A stretch of 30,011 bases of DNA, taken from a virus. The stretch lies in IMG/VR virus record IMGVR_UViG_3300010885_017843, positions 1 through 30,011 of that record; one strand, given 5' to 3'. Below, in pieces: positions 1,271 to 28,129 of this stretch. The notes under the pieces were generated by a model. The model was given only the letters and a program-made list of their open reading frames with translations. It made no database searches and was not told the origin of the DNA. Each line of letters opens with the position of its first letter. The first letter of the stretch is position 1. Both the position numbers and the translations under genes were made by a program.

Positions 1271-3817
1271 TCAGAATCCGAGCTCAGCGGCGAAAGTTTC
1301 GCCGTCTGAGTCCTCGGGCTCGGTTTCGGTTAACGCGCGCAAAAATCCGTTAATGGGCTCAGAGGGTGCGTCTACGCCTAAAGAAGAAGAAGAAGATGAA
1401 ATTCGCTCTTTAGGATAACGGATTTTTGCGCGCGTTAAGACGCTCGCTGTGGTCGGCTCACCACTCTCAGTGAGAGAGTCGAGCGTTAACGGATCTAAAC
1501 GCGCGCGCACCCGCGCGCGGTTGATTCCGATCTCTTCGAGGCTGCCCTCGGTGAAAGTGAGCCAACCACGCGCAGCGAGACGCTCGAAGCCAGGGACGAG
1601 CTCCTCAACTGAGCGCAGCCCGAGACCTCGTCGGCGGCTCAGATAGACCTCCCGAGGAGTCAGATCGAGGGTCCCATGCTTGCGAGCGAACTCGATAATG
1701 ACTCGGGCCATCTCCTCAGCGTGACGACTGTCGACGTCCTCACTCCCGCCGGCCACACTCACAGCGTGCTCGGTCCAGTAGTCACCAATCCGAAGCGCTC
1801 GACCCATGACCTCGGCCGAGATGGTCTTCCACTCTGAGTCGGCCAGCGAGAGCAGCGCTGCGACTCTCATCGTGCAGCTCCTGATCTTCGAGCTGGCGTC
1901 GTGAAGTGTGGCGAGGCGTCGCCCGACCTTGAGCTCGGCCTCCATCTCCTCACACCATCTGTAGAACATCTGAGCCGCTTCAGGATCTGGCCGCAGTACA
2001 AGACCCGTCGCTCCGGCGAGCGTGTCAGCTAGAGCAGTCAGCCGCTCCGAGTACGTCTCCGCCTCGACTCCTGGCACTGCAGCGGAGCCGAAGGTCCTCG
2101 TCCCCACGAGCGACGCTGGAACCGACGGCATGAACCGAGCGAAGAACCCTCGCCCCGACAGCTCGACGCTGCTCGTCTGATACTTGGCAATCACCGAGGG
2201 CTGAACGGTCAGCACCACCGAGAGCAGAGCGTTCTCGACGATGGTCGACTCGGGACCATCATCTCCGCCCTTACGGTCTCGCTGGATCGTCTCGCCGCTC
2301 CACGCCTTCAGGTAGACGTCGATGTTTACTGAGCTACCCGACCGGCCTTGACCGCCGACCATATCGAGCAGCCCGGCCTCGGTTGAGATCATGGCGAGGT
2401 TCTTGTGCATCCCGAGAAGCTGAACCAGACGCTCGGGAGTTGCATCGTCAACAGTTAGGCGGAACGGCATCGGCCTCGGCTCGGCCGCCTTGAGGACAAG
2501 CTCTCGCCACTCAGGGTCATCTTGTTGCTTGGAGCCCATAGCGACCGACTCGTCCCACTTCTTCTTCTTCGCCTGAGTCGTCTTCCAGATGGCGCACTCC
2601 ATCGCATGATCCTCGGCCCGATCCTGTCGACGGCCCCGCTCCCACTTGCGCAGCGGCGAGACCATCGCCTTCTCAGCGGGAGACTTGCCAGCGCCTGAGT
2701 GCATCGAGCAGTAGAGGTAAAGGTTCAGGTTCTCTGTCCAGGTGGCGAACTCGACGGTCGCATGTCCCATACAGACAGAGGCGAGGGCCCCGATTCCAAG
2801 CTGGGCGAGGAGATCGACCGGGACCTGCAGTCTGTCCGCTGCAGCGTCGACCTGATCTCTCATCCAAGCGGGCAGCGCATCGACTGGCCACACTGGCAGC
2901 GGCTGAGCATCTGACAGCGCCTGACGCTCAACCTCTGGCTGACGCTCGGGCGGGCGGCTCCAGCCCTGATCGGCCAGCGCTTGAGCTGCTGCGGAGAAGT
3001 CTCCGCCGTGATCCATAGCAGCCAAGAAGCCAAGCTTCGAGTAGACCTCCTCCGTCTTGAGCTGCGGGACCGAGGACGTGAAGACCTTCATGGTGTCGGC
3101 CGGCGTGTAGCCAGTCGTCGCCGAGGTTCCGTCTCTCAGCTCCTTACCTGGTCGAGTCCAGTGCCGCTCGCCTTGCCGGTCGACGTGGTGAAGCTGCCAG
3201 CCTCTCGCCCCGAGGATCTCAGCCCAATCCGTTGCAGCGGCCCAGAGATCGCCCGGCCGATCAGAGGCCGAGACGGTCCGCATCTTCGACCGAGGCGGCT
3301 CGAGGACGTCAGACTCACAGACAAGGTCGAGCAGCCACTCGGGCGCATAGGCGAGGACCTCCTCAAACTCCCACTCATAGGGTCGCCCGTTCGGATGCAC
3401 CGTCGGCGGAGCGACGATCTGGCCGCCCTCGCCTCGGACATCTAAGCCGGGAAGGATGCCGCTCGCGCTGTTGCGGATCGTCCGCCCGTCCGCCGGCCAG
3501 CGATAGACCTGATGCTCGCCACCCGAGCCAGTGATCGAGGTCAACGTCTGCGGGAGTTTGCCGTGAGCCGCTTCGAGATCGTGAAGGCTGTCACGGTCAT
3601 CGACGTCGAGGACCCAGATCCCAGAGCTCTCGCCGGTAGCGATGCCGACTCCGTGCCCTTTGTACTGCTGAGAGAACCACTGAGTGATCGTCTCGGCGTT
3701 GGTCGTGGCGAGGTCTTGCCAAGCATTGAGCGCTGGCCGCTTGTCTCCTGGCATGATCGGCACGACCCGCCAACCTCTGAGCGCATACTTCAGCGCCGCT
3801 TCGAGTGTGTTCATCAT
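1271..3817 (-). CDS. PrimPol-DUF3987 replication protein (primase-polymerase with ATPase)
   Basis: This 848-residue protein is the largest early gene and the likely replication initiator. Residues 1-165 form a bifunctional primase-polymerase domain: the Asp-Val-Asp-Asp metal site is at 71-74, TGSGGEH around His102 follows, and the GLDVRGEGG segment at about 124-132 leads into a VxPP-VHPNG turn. A linker domain (about 190-290) is followed by a DUF3987-type ATPase region with Walker A SGAGKS at 374-379 and a Walker B-like ISTEAG further on. Fusions of this kind prime and unwind DNA in mobile elements and phages. The start overlaps the WhiB-fusion stop by ATGA; ATG at 3814 is an alternative. No separate DNA polymerase is seen, so elongation presumably uses host enzymes. 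Confidence 0.85.
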   Translation of the reverse strand: MMNTLEAALKYALRGWRVVPIMPGDKRPALNAWQDLATTNAETITQWFSQQYKGHGVGIATGESSGIWVLDVDDRDSLHDLEAAHGKLPQTLTSITGSGGEHQVYRWPADGRTIRNSASGILPGLDVRGEGGQIVAPPTVHPNGRPYEWEFEEVLAYAPEWLLDLVCESDVLEPPRSKMRTVSASDRPGDLWAAATDWAEILGARGWQLHHVDRQGERHWTRPGKELRDGTSATTGYTPADTMKVFTSSVPQLKTEEVYSKLGFLAAMDHGGDFSAAAQALADQGWSRPPERQPEVERQALSDAQPLPVWPVDALPAWMRDQVDAAADRLQVPVDLLAQLGIGALASVCMGHATVEFATWTENLNLYLYCSMHSGAGKSPAEKAMVSPLRKWERGRRQDRAEDHAMECAIWKTTQAKKKKWDESVAMGSKQQDDPEWRELVLKAAEPRPMPFRLTVDDATPERLVQLLGMHKNLAMISTEAGLLDMVGGQGRSGSSVNIDVYLKAWSGETIQRDRKGGDDGPESTIVENALLSVVLTVQPSVIAKYQTSSVELSGRGFFARFMPSVPASLVGTRTFGSAAVPGVEAETYSERLTALADTLAGATGLVLRPDPEAAQMFYRWCEEMEAELKVGRRLATLHDASSKIRSCTMRVAALLSLADSEWKTISAEVMGRALRIGDYWTEHAVSVAGGSEDVDSRHAEEMARVIIEFARKHGTLDLTPREVYLSRRRGLGLRSVEELVPGFERLAARGWLTFTEGSLEEIGINRARVRARLDPLTLDSLTESGEPTTASVLTRAKIRYPKERISSSSSSLGVDAPSEPINGFLRALTETEPEDSDGETFAAELGF

Positions 3818-4266
3818 TCACCTATCCAGACGTAAAGCTGTGGCCTGTTCTCAACCTGCACTGTGATCTCGACGAGGCCTCGACCCTCCAGGTCATAGAG
3901 ACAGCGCCGGAGCGTGTTCGTATGCCACTGGTACGTCGTCAGCTCCTGCAGTCTCGCAAGCGTGACGCGCGTCCCCTTGTTCGTACTGAGCACCTCGGCC
4001 ACTGCTCGACTCGCTCCCCGAGGTCCAGCCATGACCGAGTCGGCTCGGCCGAAGCCTCGGTCCGCTGGCGTCGTCCCGCCCCAGTATCCCCACGGCTCGT
4101 CGACTGCAGCTTCGAGACAGGGAGCTACGACTGGGCAGACTGCGCAGATCGGGGCGGCCTTGTTCCACATGGTCACATGGTTGGCGTGCTCGGGGAAGAA
4201 CCACTCCTTCGGATAAGGACGACACTCAGCGAGTGCAGCTTCTTCAGGTGTCACTCGTTGCCGCAT
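3814..4266 (-). CDS. WhiB-like iron-sulfur regulator with C-terminal winged-helix-like domain
   Basis: The 150-residue protein carries the WhiB cluster signature Cys15, Cys41-x2-Cys44-x5-Cys50, followed by the conserved G-Y-W-G-G turn at 60-64. WhiB proteins bind a [4Fe-4S] cluster and act with the primary sigma factor. Unlike a standard WhiB (often under 120 residues), this one continues with about 70 residues resembling a winged helix: helices around 84-95, 100-110 and 113-128, then a beta hairpin of the LEGRGLVEI type. It is the third WhiB of the cluster and directly precedes the replication gene (ATGA overlap). The start has no strong Shine-Dalgarno, and a 13-base gap separates it from the XRE gene. 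The winged-helix assignment is inferred from pattern. Confidence 0.8.
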   Translation of the reverse strand: MRQRVTPEEAALAECRPYPKEWFFPEHANHVTMWNKAAPICAVCPVVAPCLEAAVDEPWGYWGGTTPADRGFGRADSVMAGPRGASRAVAEVLSTNKGTRVTLARLQELTTYQWHTNTLRRCLYDLEGRGLVEITVQVENRPQLYVWIGE

Positions 4267-4279
4267 CGGGAGCAGAGGT

Positions 4280-4741
4280 TCACGGTATCCACCTATCGTC
4301 CACGACTGAGAGAAGCAGCTTTGAGCCGATACCAGGTTGAGCGGTGATTCGCGCTATGACTTCAGAGAAGGACACGCCCTCGGCGAGGACGGTCTTCTGG
4401 ATCTCCTCATGGACTCTGACAATCGAGAACTGCAGGTCATGGCCGGAGACCTTGTGGTCCTCAGAGTGACGAAGCATCTCGGCGACCAAGCCGTCGAGCT
4501 CGGTCACGACGTGGACCTCGAAGAGCTTGTCCGTTGGGATCTCGAACACTTGAGCGAAGGCCAGTAGCTGCTCGACGTTGACTCGCCTCAGCCCCAGCTC
4601 TGTGTTGCTGATCTGCTTCAGGCTTGTCGGGCAGCCTGCTGTCGTCATCTCTTTGGCGAGCTCGCCTTGAGTCCAGTTCAGAGCGAGTCGATAGCGCCTC
4701 ACGTTGTCGGCGACTGCGTTGGGATCTAGTTCTGTGCTCAC
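4280..4741 (-). CDS. XRE-family helix-turn-helix regulator
   Basis: The GTG at 4741 overlaps the preceding stop by GTGA and gives 153 residues; the longer ATG reading runs through the upstream gene in another frame. Residues 10-77 form a Cro/C1-type helix-turn-helix: VRRYR, NWTQGELAKEM (helix 2), then a longer turn and the recognition helix with ISNTELGLR, ending in the typical LLAFAQVFEIPTDKLFE tail. The C-terminal half (78-153) is mostly helical and of unknown function. It lies between the second and third WhiB genes, which suggests all four regulators are made together. Target sites are unknown. Confidence 0.85.
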   Translation of the reverse strand: MSTELDPNAVADNVRRYRLALNWTQGELAKEMTTAGCPTSLKQISNTELGLRRVNVEQLLAFAQVFEIPTDKLFEVHVVTELDGLVAEMLRHSEDHKVSGHDLQFSIVRVHEEIQKTVLAEGVSFSEVIARITAQPGIGSKLLLSVVDDRWIP

Positions 4742-5157
4742 GTCGTGGCCTTTTCTGGGTTTTTCTTTGGGTAGCGGCGTCGGTCGAGTGCTTCTGGCTT
4801 GATGCCGAGGTCGAGCGCTGCGATCTCGTCGTTCTCTGTTGCTGCGATGAAGGCGCGCATCTCCCGCTGGGCGAGGTTGACGCTCACGATGCGGCCCTTC
4901 CTGCGTTGGGTTGATGTCATGCCGCCGACGAAGCCGCTCTCGTACTTGCCGAGGTCTCGCAGACACTCAGCTCGAACTGGACACTCGGCGCAGATTCCTC
5001 GGGCGTGGCTGTGGCCGGCGCCGACAGGGGCGAAGAAGATGTCGGGGTCCATGCCCTTACAAGCTGCGAACCATCGCCAGCCGGCCTGAGCGTTGCGCTG
5101 CTCCATGATGAGGAATAGCTGGTCGGCGACCTCTGAGCGAGGCGGGAGCTCGTTCAC
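4738..5157 (-). CDS. WhiB-like regulator, second tandem copy
   Basis: GTG at 5157 overlaps the previous stop by GTGA and gives 139 residues. The cluster ligands are Cys33, Cys56-x2-Cys59-x5-Cys65. The N-terminus (LPPR-EV, then L-LI-E-RN) and the AACKGMDPD segment match the neighbouring WhiB almost word for word, so the two are tandem duplicates. The turn after the cluster reads G-F-V-G-G instead of the usual G-[VI]-W-G-G, so the conserved tryptophan, which in characterised WhiB proteins helps contact the sigma factor, is lost. The C-terminus has a helix-turn-helix-like ALDLGIKPEALDRRRY and a basic end. It may have diverged in partner or target. Confidence 0.85.
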   Translation of the reverse strand: MNELPPRSEVADQLFLIMEQRNAQAGWRWFAACKGMDPDIFFAPVGAGHSHARGICAECPVRAECLRDLGKYESGFVGGMTSTQRRKGRIVSVNLAQREMRAFIAATENDEIAALDLGIKPEALDRRRYPKKNPEKATT

Positions 5158-5564
5158 TTGCGCGCCGCCCTCTGTCGATAGGAGCGGATCGAGACCGGCG
5201 AGACGCCGAGGTCGTGGGCTGCCATCTCCTGAGACGGATCGGTGAGCCTGATCCACTCTCGATAGACGATCTGGAAGTCCGTCTTTGAGTGCCCGAGCTG
5301 CCTGCGTTGTCGAGCACTGAGTCCGCCCCAGATCCCAGAGAGCTCGTTCGCCCCTACTTCGAGACACTCGGCCGAGACCGGACAGCCTGTGCAGACTGCT
5401 TTCGCTGCGCCGTTGCGACCGCCCTGGTCTCGCTTCAAGAAGAAGACGTCGGGGTCCATGCCCTTACAGGCTGCGGAGTCTCGCCAGTCTCGCTCGTTGC
5501 GCGCCTCGACGATGAGGGTCAGCATCTCTAGCACCTCGGGCCGAGGCGGGAGACTAGACATCAT
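5154..5564 (-). CDS. WhiB-like regulator, first tandem copy
   Basis: Two adjacent ATGs (5564 and 5561) overlap the end of the previous gene; the longer gives 136 residues. Ligands are Cys33, Cys58-x2-Cys61-x5-Cys67, with MDPDVFF after the first Cys and a canonical G-I-W-G-G turn followed by LSARQRR. The C-terminal AAHDLGVSPVSIRSYRQR looks like a small helix-turn-helix and ends basic, fitting DNA binding. WhiB proteins are [4Fe-4S] sensors and transcription factors; phage versions are known, and the one in mycobacteriophage TM4 interferes with host septation. Which promoters this one acts on cannot be read from the sequence. Confidence 0.9.
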   Translation of the reverse strand: MMSSLPPRPEVLEMLTLIVEARNERDWRDSAACKGMDPDVFFLKRDQGGRNGAAKAVCTGCPVSAECLEVGANELSGIWGGLSARQRRQLGHSKTDFQIVYREWIRLTDPSQEMAAHDLGVSPVSIRSYRQRAARK

Positions 5565-5871
5565 CGCCGAGGTCGAGCTGCTCGGGGACGTCTGGCTCGA
5601 CGTCAAGCTCAGCTTCGAGAAAGTCAGCAGCGACGACGATGGCGCTGGCGATGCCACGGATGGCGGCGAGCTTCTGCGCCTTCGTCCCGATGCCGGCCAA
5701 GAAGAAGACCGCTCGGCCGATAGAGAACGAGATGTCTCCGACGTCATCGCCCCGAACCCGAGCGTCGACCATGTCGGCGGTCGTATGGAAGAAGTCGATC
5801 TCGTCGAGCTCCTGATGAGCGGTCGCCCGTATCGCCCTCACGGTACGAGCCGAGGCCTCTCGGGCGGTCAT
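5554..5871 (-). CDS. hypothetical helical protein
   Basis: ATG at 5871 overlaps the previous stop by ATGA and gives 105 residues; the longer upstream reading is a frame shadow. The N-terminal half is helical with His/Asp/Glu residues (AHQELDEIDFFHTTADMVD at about 18-36). The middle is hydrophobic (SIGRAVFFLAG, then IRGIASAIVVAADFL) and the C-terminus is strongly acidic. The hydrophobic stretches look like amphipathic helices more than membrane spans. I do not recognise the family. Its position directly before the WhiB pair in a coupled operon is the only functional hint. Confidence 0.65.
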   Translation of the reverse strand: MTAREASARTVRAIRATAHQELDEIDFFHTTADMVDARVRGDDVGDISFSIGRAVFFLAGIGTKAQKLAAIRGIASAIVVAADFLEAELDVEPDVPEQLDLGDDV

Positions 5872-6197
5872 CTGGCTGCTCGGTAGTCTGCGACGAGGTT
5901 GGCGACGAGCCAAGCGCTGAGATGCTCGGTCTCTCTGCGGACGTAGGCCTTGTGCTCGGTCAGCGTCGGCGTGCTCCACGGCGTGAAGCTGCAGACCTTG
6001 ACCTTCAGCCCCGAGGTCGTCCAGTCGAGCGTCAGGTCGTAGCCGGCCAAGATGCGAGGGTCCGAGTAGCGAGCGATGGCGCTGCGCACACCTTGAGCCT
6101 CGCCCCAGTCGACGAGGCCGTCGTCTGGGGCGAGGCTGTCCAAGTGGGGGAGTGCCATCTCGATGAGGTCGGGCTCCTGGTCTCCGATGTGGTTCAT
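5868..6197 (-). CDS. hypothetical protein
   Basis: A 109-residue protein starts at ATG 6197, overlapping the resolvase-like gene by ATGA and ending with ATGA overlap into the next. It has a beta-rich centre (YDLTLDWTTSGLKVKVCSF at about 53-71) and a helical C-terminus (EHKAYVRRETEHLSAWLVANLV). No motif I recognise. Overlaps on both sides and conserved operon frame support it as real. Confidence 0.65.
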   Translation of the reverse strand: MNHIGDQEPDLIEMALPHLDSLAPDDGLVDWGEAQGVRSAIARYSDPRILAGYDLTLDWTTSGLKVKVCSFTPWSTPTLTEHKAYVRRETEHLSAWLVANLVADYRAAR

Positions 6198-6661
6198 CTG
6201 TTGTGCCTTTCGTGTAGCTCGTTAATGGTGTCGACGACATGGGCGAACGGAACCACGGCCCACAGCTCTGCAGTCCGCTCGCACCATGTCGTCTTTGTTT
6301 GTGGGTTCCCGCCCCATCGGAACCAGTCCGTCGCTGTGATGTGCGCAGTCCAGAGGCCGACGTCGGTCGTGCCGGCCTTCTTGCGGACGACTACGACGAC
6401 GTCGTTCGGATCTGCTGCCATTCGTGCCTGGCTTCTCCAGCTCGGCCAGCTCGAGTTTTTGACGTTCTTCACTTCGATGCTCACGCCGTCAAAGCACCAG
6501 ATGTCGCCCGGCTGCTTGCCGTGGACTCTCTCCAGCATTCGCCGAGCGTCGAGCCAGCCTCTGTCCCAGAGGTAGCGACAGACGTCCCGCTCAGCTTGCG
6601 CGCCCTTGTTCCGGTTGGAACGGCCACGCGAGGAGAGAGTCCGAGCGACATCGTCAGTCAT
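6194..6661 (-). CDS. PD-(D/E)XK nuclease, Holliday-junction-resolvase-like
   Basis: ATG at 6661 overlaps the excisionase-like stop by ATGA and gives 155 residues. The fold signature is clear: RNKGAQAERDV with Glu24, PGDI with Asp53, then Glu63-x-Lys65 in SIEVKN, matching the archaeal Hjc/VRR-like arrangement (E...GD...ExK). Such enzymes cleave branched DNA, and in phages they resolve recombination or replication intermediates before packaging. It sits with an excisionase-like protein and a RecB-family nuclease in a recombination module. A role as a penetrating-end or general nuclease is possible; the junction specificity is inference. Confidence 0.75.
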   Translation of the reverse strand: MTDDVARTLSSRGRSNRNKGAQAERDVCRYLWDRGWLDARRMLERVHGKQPGDIWCFDGVSIEVKNVKNSSWPSWRSQARMAADPNDVVVVVRKKAGTTDVGLWTAHITATDWFRWGGNPQTKTTWCERTAELWAVVPFAHVVDTINELHERHNR

Positions 6662-6840
6662 GCAGCGTCGCCGCCTGGCTGTTGTGCTTCGAGCCATGCC
6701 TCGATGTCGCTCCGCCTGAATCTGAGACTCTTGCCCAGCTTCAAGAAGGGCAGCCCGTTCTCCAGCTTCAGCCGCTCGATGTGTCGCGTCGAGCAGCTCC
6801 AGAGTTCGGCGAGCTCGCGTGTCGAGATGAGTTCGCTCAT
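6658..6840 (-). CDS. xis: excisionase-like helix-turn-helix protein
   Basis: The 60-residue protein is the classic HTH_17/MerR-like DNA-binding unit: ISTRELAELWSCSTRHIERL (residues 5-24) followed by the wing with LPFLKLGKSLRFRRSDIEAWL. Proteins of this size with this fold are commonly recombination directionality factors in actinophages with tyrosine integrases. The start overlaps the preceding stop by TAATG. The attP region carries 10-bp-spaced AGTCG repeats that would suit cooperative binding by such a protein. A plain transcription factor remains possible. Confidence 0.7.
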   Translation of the reverse strand: MSELISTRELAELWSCSTRHIERLKLENGLPFLKLGKSLRFRRSDIEAWLEAQQPGGDAA

Positions 6841-10204: not shown

Positions 10205-10537
10205 ATGTCGAAAGAACTCAGCAAGGACGACGGCTTCGGCCCTCTACTGAAGGCGCTCCGCAAGGCGCACGGCCTAAGCCAGACAGAGCTCGCCGAGGAG
10301 ATCGGCAGGATCTCCGGCCAGAAGTACTCGAAGGTCTCGATCTCGAACTGGGAGACCAACAAGAACCTGCCCTCGGTGAATACTGCCATCGCAGCGCTCG
10401 ACGAGATCCTAGAGACCGGCGGGACCTTCACCGAGATGCTCGGCATCGAAGCGCCGGACGCGTGGCGCTACGCCATCGAGCAGAGACTGGCCTCACTTGA
10501 GAGCGCCGTTTCGACGCTGCTGAAGTTCTCTAGCTGA
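10205..10537 (+). CDS. XRE-family regulator, candidate immunity repressor
   Basis: This 110-residue protein is the only gene on the plus strand. Residues 11-70 are a Cro/C1 helix-turn-helix: LLKALRKAHGLSQTELAEEI, then KYSKVSISNWETNKNLPSV with the recognition helix, and a closing helix. The C-terminal end (about 82-107) is a short helical segment that may dimerise; there is no LexA-like cleavage domain, so SOS cleavage is not expected. AAGGAG precedes the ATG. It diverges from the early operon, with palindromic operators between. Its stop overlaps the integrase stop by 8 bases, tail to tail. Repressor function is inferred from orientation and context. Confidence 0.7.
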   Translation: MSKELSKDDGFGPLLKALRKAHGLSQTELAEEIGRISGQKYSKVSISNWETNKNLPSVNTAIAALDEILETGGTFTEMLGIEAPDAWRYAIEQRLASLESAVSTLLKFSS

Positions 10538-11690
10538 ACAGCTCGTCCATAGCGTCGGCGGCGACGTGGCCGGCGTCGGGCATGAGGTGCCCGTAGACGT
10601 CCGCAGTCATGCGGATGGACGAATGCCCCAGCACCTCGGAGATGAGCTTCAGGTCGACGCCCTGCGCAATCAGGAGCGAGGCTGCAGAGTGTCGCATCGT
10701 ATGCGGAGACCACGCCTCGCCGAATAGGTCGGTCGTCAGCTTGCGCGTTCTTGCTCCGAAGTTGTCAGGGTCCATCGGAGTTCCGAGCGGCGTCCGAAAG
10801 ACCAGGTTGAAGCCGAGGACCTGATCCTTCCAGTCCGCACCGAGGGCGAGCTTCTCGGCCGCCATCATCGCTCGATGGCTGCGCAGCGCTTGAGCGGTCA
10901 TGGCTGGCAAGTGGATCGTCCTGCGCCCCTTCGAGGTCTTGAGCTCGCCCAGTTCGAGGTAGGCACGATCTCCGCCTCGCTTGAGCTGGCGGACGACCTG
11001 CATCGTCGGGCGGATGTTGTCGAGGTCGATGGCCTCCCATGCCAGCCCGAGCAGCTCGCCTCGACGTAGGCCGAGAGTGAGGGCGATGGTGTAGAGCGCT
11101 GCCTCACGCGTGCCGGCGAGCGAGTCGAGCAGTTCGCGCGCCATCTCGGGAGGCATGAAGCGGCCCTCCTTCTGATCCATGCGGACGCCATCGGCGAGGG
11201 CCGCTGGGTTGTTGCCGATGATGCCGTCCCGCTCGGCATATCGCAGAGCTCGACGAAGCGTCGACCGCGCAATCCTGACCGAGTTAGGAGAGAGGCCACG
11301 CTCCGTCGAGAGCGCCTGCATCATCTTGGTGACATCGGAGGGCCGGAGCTTGGTCAGCTCAATCTTGCCGATGTAAGGCGAGATCCACAGACGGCAGTTG
11401 TCGCGATAGTGGCGCTCAGTCGCCGAGGCCACAGTGCCGGGCAGTACGTTGTCGAGCCAGTCGGTGAGGTAGCGGTCGACGGTCATTTTCATCTTGTCGA
11501 CCGAGACGCCGTGGTCGGCTTGGCGCTGGAGCTCCTTCATCTTCTCAAGGACCTCACTTCGAGTTTTGCCAGTCACCATTGAGCGCTTCGTCTTGCGAGT
11601 CTCGGGGTCGTAATCGGTCGTCACTCGACCCTCCCAGCGACCTTTCTGGACGTTCTTGCGGACTGTTCCCTCACCTGATGCTCTTGCCAT
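10530..11690 (-). CDS. int: tyrosine integrase
   Basis: The 386-residue protein has the full phage integrase layout: an N-terminal arm-binding region with a beta-sheet start (EGTVRKN...RWEGRV), a core-binding domain (about 66-160), and the catalytic domain with Arg209 (GLRRGE), Lys254, His330-x2-Arg333 (HTMRH), His356 (LGHSS) and the nucleophile Tyr366 (VYGHL). It inserts the phage circle into a host tRNA gene. GGAGG precedes the ATG. attP lies just upstream, with a possible promoter (TTGTGC, 17 bases, AATTTA) between about 11747 and 11719. The 3' end runs antisense into the repressor stop. Confidence 0.97.
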   Translation of the reverse strand: MARASGEGTVRKNVQKGRWEGRVTTDYDPETRKTKRSMVTGKTRSEVLEKMKELQRQADHGVSVDKMKMTVDRYLTDWLDNVLPGTVASATERHYRDNCRLWISPYIGKIELTKLRPSDVTKMMQALSTERGLSPNSVRIARSTLRRALRYAERDGIIGNNPAALADGVRMDQKEGRFMPPEMARELLDSLAGTREAALYTIALTLGLRRGELLGLAWEAIDLDNIRPTMQVVRQLKRGGDRAYLELGELKTSKGRRTIHLPAMTAQALRSHRAMMAAEKLALGADWKDQVLGFNLVFRTPLGTPMDPDNFGARTRKLTTDLFGEAWSPHTMRHSAASLLIAQGVDLKLISEVLGHSSIRMTADVYGHLMPDAGHVAADAMDELFS

Positions 11691-23198: not shown

Positions 23199-23590
23199 TA
23201 GGTCAAGACCTCGACGGTGATGTCTGCGGCGTAGTAGGGGACGTCTGCGATGGTGACCTCTCGGTAGTTCCCGATGGTGTTCACTCGGAGGTTGACGTCT
23301 GGGCTCGCTGCGGCGTCGATGGCGGCCACGATTGAGGAGCTGCCCGAGGAGTCGAGCATCGCATCGAGGAAGGCGAGCTGGTCGACGTGACGGTGCGAGA
23401 CCATGACAGTCAGGTCGACCGAGGTCTCACGGTAGCCGTCGAAGCTGAGCGGGCGGATCGTGAAGCCAGCGACAAAGACGGCCGGCGCTGCGATGTCCTC
23501 GGGTGGATATTTGTAGATGTTGATCCCCTGGCAGCTTGAGAGAGCCAGGGCGATGACGTCTCGGATCTCGCCGTTCGTGATCTCGCTCAC
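23198..23590 (-). CDS. tail terminator-like protein
   Basis: The GTG at 23590 overlaps the adaptor stop by GTGA; 130 residues. It begins with a helix (GEIRDVIALALSSC), then IYKYPPEDIAAPAVFVAGF, DLTVMVSHRHVDQLAFLDAML, a SSIVAAIDAA helix and a closing strand pair ending ITVEVLT. This alpha/beta pattern is that of siphovirus tail terminators. By position it could also be a head stopper. Confidence 0.65.
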   Translation of the reverse strand: MSEITNGEIRDVIALALSSCQGINIYKYPPEDIAAPAVFVAGFTIRPLSFDGYRETSVDLTVMVSHRHVDQLAFLDAMLDSSGSSSIVAAIDAAASPDVNLRVNTIGNYREVTIADVPYYAADITVEVLT

Positions 23591-24213
23591 GCGACGCCGA
23601 AGTTCCCGCCGTGGCGATAGGGCTGCAGCATCTGGACCGCCCGAGGACTCATCGACTTTGAGACCCTCGTCACGCCGAAGTCTGCGAAGCCGACGATCCC
23701 GAGCGGAGCGGACTCCAGCTTCATGACCTCAGCGACGATGATTCGACAGGCTTGCTTGACCTCGACCGGGACTGCAGGCCAGCCCCACGTCCCGTTGATC
23801 TTGATGAGGCCACGCCGGCCAGTCGGGACGACGACCGAAAAGGTGATGTTATTGAGGAGGCGGAGTTCAGAGAACGGCTCAGCTATCGGAGCTCTTGTCG
23901 CTGCTCCGACTGGGCCGAGCTGGTACTGGCCGGCCGTGTAAGTCGTGGCATAGGTTCCGTCGCCGTCGGTGTCCTCGGTGATTGAGGTCGCCGAGGTCAG
24001 GTCGTTAAACGCTCCGAGCTTGAGGACCTGAGAGTCATCGGTGTCGAAATAGCGGATTGCGGTCTCGGAGTAGAAGTGGCGGCCACAGTGCTCGTCGATC
24101 AGGCGACTCGATGCCGTGACGACATCGTCGAGCAGTGCTGTCGAGCCGGCGAGGTTGACGCCCGTATACGCCTGAGCCTCGGCGCTTGTGATGTAGCCGT
24201 TCGTGATGGTCAT
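23587..24213 (-). CDS. head-tail adaptor (connector) protein
   Basis: The 208-residue protein starts with a helical gp6-like adaptor core: EAQAYTGVNLAGSTALLDDV and a SSRLIDEHCGR helix. A beta-rich insertion follows (RYFDTDDSQVLKLG...TSITEDTDGDG). The end, VPVEVKQACRIIVAEVMKL then SPRAVQMLQPYRH, is typical of adaptors docking under the portal. It follows the methyltransferase gene by 4 bases. Confidence 0.8.
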   Translation of the reverse strand: MTITNGYITSAEAQAYTGVNLAGSTALLDDVVTASSRLIDEHCGRHFYSETAIRYFDTDDSQVLKLGAFNDLTSATSITEDTDGDGTYATTYTAGQYQLGPVGAATRAPIAEPFSELRLLNNITFSVVVPTGRRGLIKINGTWGWPAVPVEVKQACRIIVAEVMKLESAPLGIVGFADFGVTRVSKSMSPRAVQMLQPYRHGGNFGVA

Positions 24214-24217
24214 TCGG

Positions 24218-24703
24218 TCATCTCCATGCCGCCGCTCGGACGTCTTCGCCGTGGATGTCGAGGACGTGCTTCGAGAAGCAGGTCTCCAGCACTGCAGCGA
24301 GAGCGTCTGGGGCTATGTTCTGGTAGTGCTCGCCCGGCTGCAGGCGTCCGCCGTCGGCTGCTGAGTGAGGTGCTCGGCCGTAGCCTGCAGCGGTGAAGAT
24401 AAAGAGGCCGCCGTGAGGGTCGACTAGGTGCGAAATGTGGCGGATGTGCTCGGGCCATTCGGCAGTGTGCTCGGCGACCTCAAGGTAGAGGGCGACGTCG
24501 AAGGTTTCGACTGAGCCGAAGTCCAAGACGTCGCCGACCCATGTCACCTCGGGAGCCTCGACGAGGTCGATGATCTCGAAGGTCGAGGTCGAGTCGAAGA
24601 GATAGCGCCCGTGACCGTTAATGTCTCGCCCGCCGACATCGAGGACGTTCTTAGGCCCAGAGGTTGCCCACCTCTGAACCCACTCCAGAACGTCCCTGTG
24701 CAT
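24218..24703 (-). CDS. SAM-dependent methyltransferase (class I)
   Basis: At 161 residues this is a compact Rossmann methyltransferase. Motif I is VLDVGGRDINGHG (20-32), an acidic residue ends strand 2 (IIDLVEAP), WVGDVLDFG is motif III-like, and FDVALYLEVAEHTAEW is motif IV, followed by PHGGLFIFTAAGYG. There is no target-recognition domain or DPPY-type motif, so it does not look like a DNA base methylase. It starts 2 bases after the small capsid-neighbour gene and precedes the adaptor. Substrate may be a virion protein or sugar; unknown. Confidence 0.75.
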   Translation of the reverse strand: MHRDVLEWVQRWATSGPKNVLDVGGRDINGHGRYLFDSTSTFEIIDLVEAPEVTWVGDVLDFGSVETFDVALYLEVAEHTAEWPEHIRHISHLVDPHGGLFIFTAAGYGRAPHSAADGGRLQPGEHYQNIAPDALAAVLETCFSKHVLDIHGEDVRAAAWR

Positions 24704-24705
24704 CT

Positions 24706-24927
24706 TTAGGAGGCTTTAGGCTTGCGGCCGCGTGGTGTGGGTAGTGCTGCGTTCTCGACGCTGAGATCGGCCGAGGCTGTCTCTAGCGAGCCGACGACGA
24801 TCTCGTCCTTGTCGGCGCGTGTAGCGAAGTTGTTCATGATGAGGTTGTCGGCTGTGGCCTTGTCGGCCTCGACGACTGCGCCGGACTCGAAGCCGGACGC
24901 TGCGATCTGTAAACGGATAGCGGGCAT
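24706..24927 (-). CDS. small protein next to the capsid gene
   Basis: The ATG at 24927 has GAAAGGGG upstream, the same type of ribosome binding site as the capsid gene, and gives 73 residues; an ATG at 24960 lies in the hairpin and is unlikely. Sequence: IRLQIAASGFESGAVVEADKATADNLI, then EIVVGSLETAS, ending basic (RGRKPKAS). Small proteins in this position are often head-decoration or completion proteins. Not recognised further. Confidence 0.65.
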   Translation of the reverse strand: MPAIRLQIAASGFESGAVVEADKATADNLIMNNFATRADKDEIVVGSLETASADLSVENAALPTPRGRKPKAS

Positions 24928-24953
24928 CTGTGCCCCTTTCGATAACGCCTTGA

Positions 24954-24985
24954 GGCACACGCCGAGCTCGAGCTCGGCGTGTGCC
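24954..24985. promoter_or_regulatory. 32-bp perfect palindrome after the capsid gene
   Basis: Arms GGCACACGCCGAGCTC (24954-24969) and GAGCTCGGCGTGTGCC (24970-24985) are perfectly complementary. It begins 14 bases after the capsid stop. There is no U-tract on either strand, so it is not a classic terminator. An mRNA-stabilising or partial-termination element that keeps capsid message abundant is likely. Confidence 0.7.
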
Positions 24986-24999
24986 CTTCAGCTAACGGA

Positions 25000-26232
25000 T
25001 TAGGTCAGGTAGGTAAGAACCCGAGCTGCTGCCGCGTCGATGATCTGAGAATCTCCACGCATGATGAAGCGGAAGGTGTTCAGGTCGGTGTTGAATGCGT
25101 AGTCCTGGCTGGACTCAACGCGAACGCCGCCGGCGATGCGGACCATAACTCCACGTCCCCAGTCGCCGAAGGCGAGACCCTTGCCGGCCGTTGTGGTAAC
25201 GGTTGGCATGTTCGGGTCGGTGTAGATCGGCTTGCCGAGAAGCAAGTCAGGCGTGCCTGCTTGGTTCGATGGCTGCCAGAGGTACTGACCAGTGCCAGCG
25301 CCGCCGGACAGATCGCGCAACTTGCGCAGCGTCAGCACGACGGAGTCGTTGCAGATGAAGCTGGCGTTCTCACGGTATGGCCGAGTGATCGAGTGCATCA
25401 GGGTCAGCACGTCATTCATGACGAAGCCCGCAGCGGCTGAACCAGTCGCCGAGGCGACGGTCGTGAAGCCTGCAGAGCCAGCGATGCCGACTGGCTGGGA
25501 TGAGCCGCTGCCGGTAATGGTCGCAGCGCCGAAGCCGTTCCCGAGAGCCTGACCGCCAACCTGAGCCAAGAAGGCCTCGATGTTGACTGCAGCGTCGGAG
25601 AGCAGCTCGCTCGATACCTGTGTCAAGAATGCGTACTTGTACGCCCCGAGGGTGACCTGACCGAAGGCCGGGTCCGATGCTCCGATGGTGCCCGCCTCTG
25701 CGACGAGGGCCGCTGTAGGGAAGGAGCCAGAAGCTGCGGTCGGTACCTGGAGGCCTTCGCCGCCGGCGGTCTCGATGAGCATGGCGTTCGCTGCCATGAC
25801 CGTCGAGTTCTCCTTGAGTGCGACGATGAGCTGGTCGTAGAAAGACGTCGGGACGGTGTTCAGTCCAGCCCCTGCGCTCAGCTTCGAGAGGGTCCGCTTC
25901 TCAGCGGCCTCTGGGCCGAACTCAGCGAAGCGACGCTCGCCACTTGCGAGGGAGCGCAGCATGTCAGAGTCAGAGACCTTGACTTCCGCTGGAGCTTCCG
26001 ACGGTGCGAAGCGCCCGAGGGTTGCTTCGATGTCAGCGTTACGCTGCTCAAGCTCGATGATCGAGTTCAGGCGGGCGTCGAGTGCGTCGAGGTCGGCGTT
26101 ACCCTTTGCCCACTGAATTTCCTCTTCACCTGAGAACTCACGGCCTTCGGCTGCGACGTGATCGGAAAGGGCGCGCATCTCGGCCCATGCTTTGTTTCGT
26201 GCCTCTACGAGGCGCTTGATTTCTGGATTCAT
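25000..26232 (-). CDS. HK97-fold major capsid protein
   Basis: The 410-residue protein starts with a coiled-coil delta domain (about 1-75: IKRLVEARNKAWAEMRALSD, LDALDARLNSIIELEQRN), removed by the protease in this family. The HK97 core follows, with TVPTSFYDQLIVALKENS, then the E-loop/P-domain region (QVSSELLSDAAVNIEAFLAQVGGQAL) and FGDWGRGVMVRIAGGVRVESS near the end. AAAGGGG precedes the ATG. Length is typical. The protease gene lies 87 bases upstream, with no gene in the gap. Confidence 0.95.
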   Translation of the reverse strand: MNPEIKRLVEARNKAWAEMRALSDHVAAEGREFSGEEEIQWAKGNADLDALDARLNSIIELEQRNADIEATLGRFAPSEAPAEVKVSDSDMLRSLASGERRFAEFGPEAAEKRTLSKLSAGAGLNTVPTSFYDQLIVALKENSTVMAANAMLIETAGGEGLQVPTAASGSFPTAALVAEAGTIGASDPAFGQVTLGAYKYAFLTQVSSELLSDAAVNIEAFLAQVGGQALGNGFGAATITGSGSSQPVGIAGSAGFTTVASATGSAAAGFVMNDVLTLMHSITRPYRENASFICNDSVVLTLRKLRDLSGGAGTGQYLWQPSNQAGTPDLLLGKPIYTDPNMPTVTTTAGKGLAFGDWGRGVMVRIAGGVRVESSQDYAFNTDLNTFRFIMRGDSQIIDAAAARVLTYLT

Positions 26233-26319
26233 AATGAATCCCCTTTCGGTTAGCTGCTCCGTCGACGGGATTGCCGGCGGGTATTTCGTTAACAGTGCCG
26301 AGGTGCGTTTCGCGCGAGC

Positions 26320-27027
26320 TCAGCGGGTTGGCGGGTTGCGGCGACCTGTCCGCTTAGAGGGCGAGACGTCAGGTTCACTGGGGGTCTCTGGCTCTTGTGG
26401 CTCTTCCTCGTCTGGAACGTCCGAGGAGCGGACATCTCGAAGGATGAGGTGGTCTAGCGTGCCCAGTCGGGCAGCCTCGGAGACTTGCTCATATGGCAGG
26501 TCTACGAATTGAGAGAGGGAGCGCAGCGCTACTGCGTTGCCGGCCTCCTCTGTTGAACGGTAAGCGGGCGAGGAGACTGGGCCGAGCTCGTAGAGCTGCA
26601 CTGCCTCTAGGCGTCGCAGCGGGAAGCCCTCCTCGGTAGTCGTCCAGGAGTCGGCCAGCGTCGAGAAGCTGAACGACGAGCCGCGCACCTTGCCGGCTTT
26701 GACCTTCGCCATGACGCGCTGAGCGTCTGGGTCGGTCACGTCGAGCTGCATGGCGTAGCGGAGGCCGGTCTCGTCGATGCCGAGCTCCAGCGTGCCTGAG
26801 TCTGTCGTAGCCAAGAGCAGGCTCATGTCGTGATTGAACGCTCCGATGATGTTTCTATCGGCATGGCGCAGAGTGTCCGTGAAGGCTTGAGGGTCGATGA
26901 TCTCGACGAAGCCTCCGAGGTTCTGGCTCAGGCGCTCAAAAGTTGCACCGTAACCCTCTAGTAAAGGTTGAGAGTTTTCGGCGGTCCGCAGTTCTGGCCG
27001 GTCCTTATTCGCTCGCAGTTCATGCAT
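26320..27027 (-). CDS. prohead protease (HK97 U35 type)
   Basis: The 235-residue protein shows LLEGYGATFER (strand 1), GAFNHD with catalytic His66, the TGLRYAMQLD strand, and KVRGSSFSF with the nucleophile Ser117/Ser118. The LEAVQLYELGPVSSPAY strand completes the family pattern. A disordered acidic C-terminus (about 200-235) is probably self-cleaved. It overlaps the portal stop by 8 bases. It trims the capsid delta domain during maturation. Confidence 0.92.
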   Translation of the reverse strand: MHELRANKDRPELRTAENSQPLLEGYGATFERLSQNLGGFVEIIDPQAFTDTLRHADRNIIGAFNHDMSLLLATTDSGTLELGIDETGLRYAMQLDVTDPDAQRVMAKVKAGKVRGSSFSFSTLADSWTTTEEGFPLRRLEAVQLYELGPVSSPAYRSTEEAGNAVALRSLSQFVDLPYEQVSEAARLGTLDHLILRDVRSSDVPDEEEPQEPETPSEPDVSPSKRTGRRNPPTR

Positions 27028-28129
27028 TCGGGCTCGCTTTCACGTCGGCCAGAGGAGGCCGATCTTCGAGTTCTCTGACTTCGTTGACGGTCAAGAAGCC
27101 AGCAGCGAGGGCGGTCGCATAGCTGGCGTAGCGGGTTTGCAGGTCCGAGCGGAGCAAGGCTCCAGTGTTGAATCGGACGTACTGCGGCTGCGGGACTGCA
27201 GCGGTGAGGACCTCTTGAATGAGCACTAGGTCGGCGTTGATGCTGTCGACTAGGAACTGCTGAGCCTGCTGCTCTCGGTTCGCATAGGTCACTGAGGAGC
27301 CACTCGAAGCGACTCCGATCTTCTCGGGCGGGACTCCGAAGACCTGACATATCTCGATGGCGCAGTTCCGCTTGGTCTCTAGGAACTGGCTCTCGTCGGC
27401 GTTGACGTCAATGCTCTCGTACTTGAGGCCGGCCCCGACGACTGCCGGGCGGCGCTTCTTCCATGACGACGTGATGCTTGAGCGGATCTGAGAGGCCTGC
27501 TCGGCGGTGAGTTCTTGGTCGGCGTAGATGATCGAGCTCGGGACTGCGCCGTTTGCGAACCATTCGGAGCCGAACTCCTGCGCCCTCGATGAGAGCTCGA
27601 TGAGGCCGGAGCTCTCAAGTGGTGCGATACCGAACTGCTGACCAGGTACCGGGAAGCCGGGCACGACGAGCAGATCGTCCAGGTTAAAGGGCTGGCCGTT
27701 GTAGCGAACCTGAGCTCGACCGACCGAGGATGCATCGACGACTTGAACGCTGACAGGGTTGAGCCATTCGACAGAGGAGGCATAGCCGGCGGCGTCTCTG
27801 CCGGTAATCGCTCCCCATGCGTTGCCATAGAGGTCTCGGCTCATCGACATCTGCCGCAGCCAGAACGACCTCGGAAGCTTCGATGGTGCCTCGATCAGGC
27901 GAGGCTGGATGGCGACCGGCTGCTGCAGGCCAGAGGCGTCGGTCTGATAAGAGACGAGCGGGAGCTGTGCGATGGTGCTGGCGCGCAAGTTGATGCACGC
28001 GATAACCGCCGAGAGTCTCAGCCCGTCGGTGAGGGTGTAGTTCTTATCTGGATGGAAGTCTCCGCCCGAGCCCCAGATCGACTGGAACGAGATCGCGCGC
28101 TCCTCGCGCTGTGGTCTAAATAGACCCAT
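27020..28129 (-). CDS. portal protein (HK97 family)
   Basis: The 369-residue protein begins GLFRPQREERAISF and carries family blocks LSAVIACINLRASTIAQLPL, FWLRQMSMSRDLYGNAWGAI, and NCAIEICQVFGVPPEKIG near residue 260. The wing and clip regions lie between. It forms the dodecameric DNA gate at the capsid vertex. It starts one base before the end of the tiny membrane gene's stop region and is followed by the protease. Confidence 0.95.
   Translation of the reverse strand: MGLFRPQREERAISFQSIWGSGGDFHPDKNYTLTDGLRLSAVIACINLRASTIAQLPLVSYQTDASGLQQPVAIQPRLIEAPSKLPRSFWLRQMSMSRDLYGNAWGAITGRDAAGYASSVEWLNPVSVQVVDASSVGRAQVRYNGQPFNLDDLLVVPGFPVPGQQFGIAPLESSGLIELSSRAQEFGSEWFANGAVPSSIIYADQELTAEQASQIRSSITSSWKKRRPAVVGAGLKYESIDVNADESQFLETKRNCAIEICQVFGVPPEKIGVASSGSSVTYANREQQAQQFLVDSINADLVLIQEVLTAAVPQPQYVRFNTGALLRSDLQTRYASYATALAAGFLTVNEVRELEDRPPLADVKASPNA

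Follow-up and report, generated by a model that had tools for sequence, protein, structure and literature searches.

A compact operon of three diverged WhiB-type genes in a small temperate actinobacterial siphovirus

Introduction

In actinophages, genes of the WhiB type outnumber all other regulators, and by the time of a 2021 survey the function during infection had been studied for the WhiB protein of TM4 alone (PMC8612146). Among the 2951 actinophages surveyed, 24% carried whiB, mostly in one copy, and two copies were found in 182 phages (PMC8612146). Multi-copy whiB has also been noted in metagenomic actinophages (PMC6802176), and the three WhiB genes of the mycobacteriophage LeBron have been published (PMC13148394).

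LeBron and its cluster L relative Archie, each with three WhiB genes by HMM (gp68, gp77 and gp78 in LeBron), provide a close architectural precedent for the locus described here. In both phages a tandem whiB pair lies just downstream of a RusA-like resolvase gene in the early/replication region, and in our virus a RusA-like gene is likewise located upstream. On the other hand, the LeBron and Archie genomes are of 73-76 kb rather than ~30 kb, their third copy stands ~5 kb apart and has degenerated (24.9 bits in LeBron), they have no co-operonic trio, and the copies that we have read do not carry the winged-helix tail predicted for one of our proteins. When over-expressed, gp78 of LeBron is highly toxic, gp68 is mildly so and gp77 is not toxic (PMC13148394). 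The phage-encoded Wbl protein of the mycobacteriophage TM4, WhiB-TM4, is WhiB2-like according to the literature and, unlike the trio here, is described as the product of a single whiB gene acting on host whiB2.

Wbl proteins with solved structures bind sigma-A through an interface hinged at the [4Fe-4S] cluster (PMC10245118). Alanine at F31, F32 or W76 of WhiB3 abolishes the binding to sigma-A4, and the equivalent residues of WhiB1 are F17, F18 and W60; in WhiB7 the Glu of the EPW triplet is required (PMC10245118).

Results and Discussion

The virus and its early region

The viral DNA that we have analysed as a whole (the window, 30,011 nucleotides) corresponds to positions 1-30,011 of the IMG/VR record IMGVR_UViG_3300010885_017843. 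The ends of the window share a 15-bp direct repeat, and a 20-kb relative, IMGVR_UViG_3300042878_000758 (the sister virus), is collinear with the window across the join of its ends. Together these indicate a complete, circularly permuted genome of ~29,996 bp, which bears out the 30-kb genome assumed in the initial annotation. The window encodes an integrase, an endolysin, tail proteins, an HK97-type head, a portal and a terminase, in addition to exonuclease, RusA-like and primase genes; from this gene content the virus is a temperate siphovirus.

The WhiB genes belong to the early operon that runs leftward, with the RusA-like nuclease on one side of them and the primase on the other (Table 1). 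The operon is divergent from an XRE-type gene that is probably the immunity repressor, given its sub-threshold RstR/DicA-like matches and its divergent position beside the integrase. For the hypothetical ORF next to whiB-A, the profile search found no family match. A promoter scan of the WhiB region found no sigma-70-type promoter, and the Rfam search no RNA element. There was no match when the first 12 kb of the window were searched against phages for near-identical sequence, and no relative when genome contigs were scanned with whiB-A and whiB-C.

Table 1 Features of the early region of the window.
Feature	Coordinates	Strand	Length	Evidence and context
primase-polymerase/helicase	1271..3817	-		Prim-Pol and DUF3987 matches; 4-base overlap with whiB-C
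whiB-C	3814..4266	-	150 aa	PF02467, E 1.0e-10
XRE/HTH_3-type regulator	4280..4741	-	153 aa	HTH_3, E 1.2e-5; between whiB-B and whiB-C
whiB-B	4738..5157	-	139 aa	PF02467, E 4.1e-13
whiB-A	5154..5564	-	136 aa	PF02467, E 3.9e-18
conserved hypothetical ORF	5554..5877	-		11-base overlap with the whiB-A start
RusA-like resolvase / nuclease	6194..6697	-		phrog_244, E 2.1e-14; upstream of the WhiB genes
divergent XRE-type gene (probable immunity repressor)	10205..10537	+		RstR/DicA-like repressor matches below cut-off
integrase	10530..11690			adjoins the divergent XRE-type gene

Two further observations concern the other part of the genome. A SAM-dependent methyltransferase-like gene (24218-24703; phrog_32762, E 1e-9) lies between the major head and head-tail adaptor genes, where a gene of this kind is unexpected. 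In addition, window positions 23244-27378 recur with 100% identity in a viral contig of 4.1 kb (IMGVR_UViG_3300027754_003052, L065) that comes from a different metagenome, which indicates that the same virus has been assembled twice.

Three WhiB genes in one cassette

The initial annotation, made from the sequence without database searches, had proposed three separate WhiB-like genes with an XRE gene between the second and the third, all coupled by overlaps or a 13-base gap. The profile searches and the gene coordinates agree with all of this. The three proteins score 66.2 (whiB-A), 50.1 (whiB-B) and 42.4 bits (whiB-C) against PF02467, whose curated cut-off is 23.6 bits, and the same matches are reproduced when the whole record is scanned at the DNA level. 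The four-cysteine pattern C-xn-C-x2-C-x5-C is present in all three, at C33/58/61/67 in A, C33/56/59/65 in B and C15/41/44/50 in C, as well as in all three proteins of the sister virus. The profile of A/B matches solved Wbl structures, several of which are sigma-A complexes. Judged by the cysteines, each of A, B and C is likely to bind a [4Fe-4S] cluster.

The trio is packed into 1.75 kb. A and B, B and the XRE gene, and C and the primase overlap by 4 bases each, and the XRE gene is separated from C by the 13-base gap. By its overlap, the primase is translationally coupled to whiB-C. The share of about 6% of the genome previously given for the cluster holds for the span including the XRE gene (5.8%), while the three WhiB genes alone account for 4.3%.

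Rarity of the trio

The set of three had been regarded as unusual. For the tight trio this stands, but the number itself is not unprecedented: LeBron, Archie and a 92.7-kb metagenomic virus (record G065), in which the genes are dispersed, carry three each. We have counted the copies in 75 distinct WhiB-bearing IMG/VR records, many of which are fragments, and found three in 2 records, two in 22 and one in 51; the two three-copy records are the sister virus and the 92.7-kb record. Among these 75 records, a trio within 1.75 kb is found in this lineage only. For 60 phage records, sampled across the 1,397 that matched, tblastn showed no more than two WhiB places in any record, though a single-query tblastn undercounts the copies, as it finds two in Archie where the HMM finds three. 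In the literature that we searched, we found no description of a compact trio, of a partner with the Trp-to-Val change described below or of a WhiB-plus-winged-helix protein. Overall, a copy number of three is already known, and the compact trio with these members is a new arrangement.

Origin of the three copies

A and B share 40% identity over their whole length, both extensions included, and their genes contain in-register DNA repeats that are spaced by 401-407 bp and are 71-88% identical. The full-length identity and the in-register repeats together show that the pair arose by tandem duplication. A tree built from 56 WhiB domains contains too few columns for its root to be resolved or for A and B to be placed as sisters. 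The alignment of C with the other two is confined to the WhiB domain, and by its sequence C is of a different subtype.

Residues of the predicted sigma-A interface

whiB-A has a canonical WhiB domain with F41F42, a GIWGG turn containing W79, and an N-terminal Trp (W27) six residues before Cys1. The Trp at this spacing, the FF pair and an S-G-[IV]-W-G-G turn are features of the WhiB1 class, from which whiB-A differs in that its N-terminus is extended and its C-terminus continues into an HTH-like tail of 50 aa. In whiB-B the FF pair and the N-terminal Trp are present, and the turn reads GFVGG, i.e., Trp has been changed to Val; the sister virus has the same turn. whiB-C has FF23-24 and W62 in a GYWGG turn, and is without the N-terminal Trp. 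In both genomes its turn is directly preceded by the EPW triplet (DEPWGYWGG). EPW before a G-x-W-G-G turn and the absence of the W3-equivalent Trp are both shared with WhiB7. Thus, with regard to the G-[VI]-W-G-G turn, the Trp is kept in A and C and lost in B.

Since the FF/turn-Trp set is intact in A and C and the turn Trp is lost in B, A and C are predicted to bind sigma-A, and B is predicted not to do so in the usual way. These residue patterns suggest that the three proteins have divided the labour rather than being redundant.

A parallel can be drawn with LeBron, where gp78 has the turn GIWGG and its tandem partner gp77 has GIRAG and, like whiB-B, no turn Trp. The toxicity contrast between gp77 and gp78 is thus suggestively similar to the difference between B and A, an argument by analogy. 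We have also observed that the annotated start of gp77 (L113 5235-5552) omits the first WhiB cysteine, with the open frame and the HMM match beginning upstream, so that the lack of toxicity of gp77 could reflect a truncated construct.

C-terminal tails

The C-terminus of whiB-C (residues about 81-150) is predicted to form a winged helix. In the structure model, helices and strands follow each other in the winged-helix order over residues 82-148, with a pLDDT of about 55-73 for the tail (60-73 in residues 81-140 and 56 in the last block), and the best structural matches of residues 77-150 are winged-helix proteins (VIA Z 9.8, Foldseek E 0.012). Taken as a whole, the models of whiB-A and whiB-C have low confidence, with a mean pLDDT of 56 and 53, respectively, and that of whiB-A is too poor for a fold search. 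The tail of whiB-C contains no RGR and hence no AT-hook (RGRP), the element with which WhiB7 reads DNA. As a winged helix is predicted in its place, whiB-C may act in a WhiB7-like manner at the sigma face, but we do not file it as WhiB7.

whiB-A ends in a basic tail of ~50 aa with an HTH-like motif seen by eye. The Pfam search on the tails alone gave sub-threshold matches, for whiB-A only (Sigma70_r4_2, E 0.09; HTH_3, E 0.11); from inspection by eye, we infer that the tails of both A and B are HTH-like.

Among 67 EPW-type viral WhiB matches, the winged-helix tail appears in the sister virus only. A WhiB with an EPW turn in a 102.9-kb viral record (L184) has a 158-aa tail with cysteine-rich zinc-finger-like and HTH-like stretches, and is by its sequence another candidate for a fusion of WhiB with a DNA-binding domain.

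Conservation in the sister virus

Two genomes cover the locus, the window and the sister virus; the other relatives, which were found via the head and terminase proteins, are fragmentary and do not extend over the WhiB region. Between the two genomes the protein identity is 96% for A, 72% for B and 87% for C, with dN/dS values of 0.13, 0.29 and 0.31, respectively, and all three WhiB genes are under purifying selection. An assembly artefact is ruled out, since the same trio, at 72-96% protein identity, occurs in this separately assembled virus.

The slot of the XRE gene is occupied in the sister virus by an unrelated 104-aa ORF, and neither the XRE protein nor whiB-C has a tblastn match in the phage collection. 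The initial annotation had counted the XRE gene as part of the cluster, and it does have that position, but its replacement shows that it does not belong to the core of the module and makes it an interchangeable passenger. The conserved unit is the WhiB trio. In the sister virus, a DNA methyltransferase-like gene (named from sequence; L007 4462-5544) also separates whiB-C from the primase, and shares a 4-base overlap with whiB-C. The methyltransferase insertion and the XRE swap suggest that the gene borders at the cassette are exchange points.

Upstream of its WhiB operon, the sister virus carries a GC-rich array of short repeat units (L007 1539-1898), with units around GGCAT / GGCACGGCATGGC, for which no counterpart aligned in the window.

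Proposed mechanism and alternatives

We consider it probable, from the residue and domain patterns and from the early-operon context, that the WhiB proteins appropriate the RNA polymerase early in infection and so redirect the sigma-A transcription of the host. In the lytic phase, A and C would each carry a [4Fe-4S] cluster and attach to region 4 of the principal sigma factor of the host, and would steer or block the RNA polymerase holoenzyme at selected host and/or phage promoters. C would use a WhiB7-style EPW contact, with the winged helix replacing the AT-hook as the DNA reader. For B, which is without the turn Trp, ordinary sigma-A binding is probably lost or changed, and it may be a modulator of A or act on another partner. 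The outcome would be host growth arrest together with a shift of transcription, as reported for the TM4 and LeBron WhiB proteins, and the XRE gene would be a swappable neighbour in the cassette. The negative promoter scan and the low overall confidence of the structure models count against this reading, as does the coverage of the locus by two genomes only.

WhiB-TM4 provides the model for a different explanation, in which the proteins are dominant-negative repressors that compete at a host whiB promoter with no action on sigma-A, leading to a septation block and superinfection exclusion. WhiB-TM4 down-regulates whiB2 and phenocopies whiB2 loss, and a superinfection block has been reported (PMC6282962; PMC8612146); the basic or HTH-like tail on each of A, B and C is also consistent with this mode. 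However, three diverged copies with the sigma contacts intact in A and C fit the targeting of RNA polymerase at least equally well, and the middle motif of C is of the WhiB7 type rather than the WhiB2-type ERF. We thus regard this explanation as unlikely.

The initial annotation had inferred a redox- or iron-sulfur-responsive layer that redirects host or phage transcription, and the four conserved cysteines of each protein might speak for a cassette that senses redox state or nitric oxide and thereby decides between lysis and lysogeny. C is without the W3-equivalent Trp; WhiB7 has no such residue either, which leaves its cluster solvent-exposed and O2-sensitive (PMC10245118). The phage is temperate; the context of whiB in cluster T phages has already prompted a lysis-lysogeny proposal (PMC8612146). 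But there is no redox partner gene. Moreover, Wbl proteins of known structure require the cluster in order to bind sigma-A, and sensing therefore does not follow from its presence. Appropriation of sigma-A is therefore better grounded than redox sensing, which is possible but, in our judgement, quite improbable.

A redundant gene-dosage duplication, largely without division of labour, is very improbable, because although the tandem duplication behind A and B is clear, the Trp-to-Val change of B is found in both genomes, C is of another subtype with another tail, and purifying selection acts on all three genes.

Implications

A complete 30-kb phage with three diverged WhiBs is a natural experiment on the parts of phage WhiB, whose value lies in the combination, within one operon, of residue-level differences at the sigma-A interface with different tails. 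It is conceivable, though doubtful, that phages make alternative promoter-selectivity factors by joining the sigma-A-binding module of Wbl proteins to DNA-binding tails that can be exchanged (a winged helix in C, HTH-like in A and B), in which case these proteins would be several reprogrammed sigma-A adaptors of a single 30-kb phage, with B retuned away from ordinary sigma-A binding. If the prediction for whiB-C is true, its fusion of WhiB with a winged helix would represent a new means of giving a Wbl protein a DNA address.
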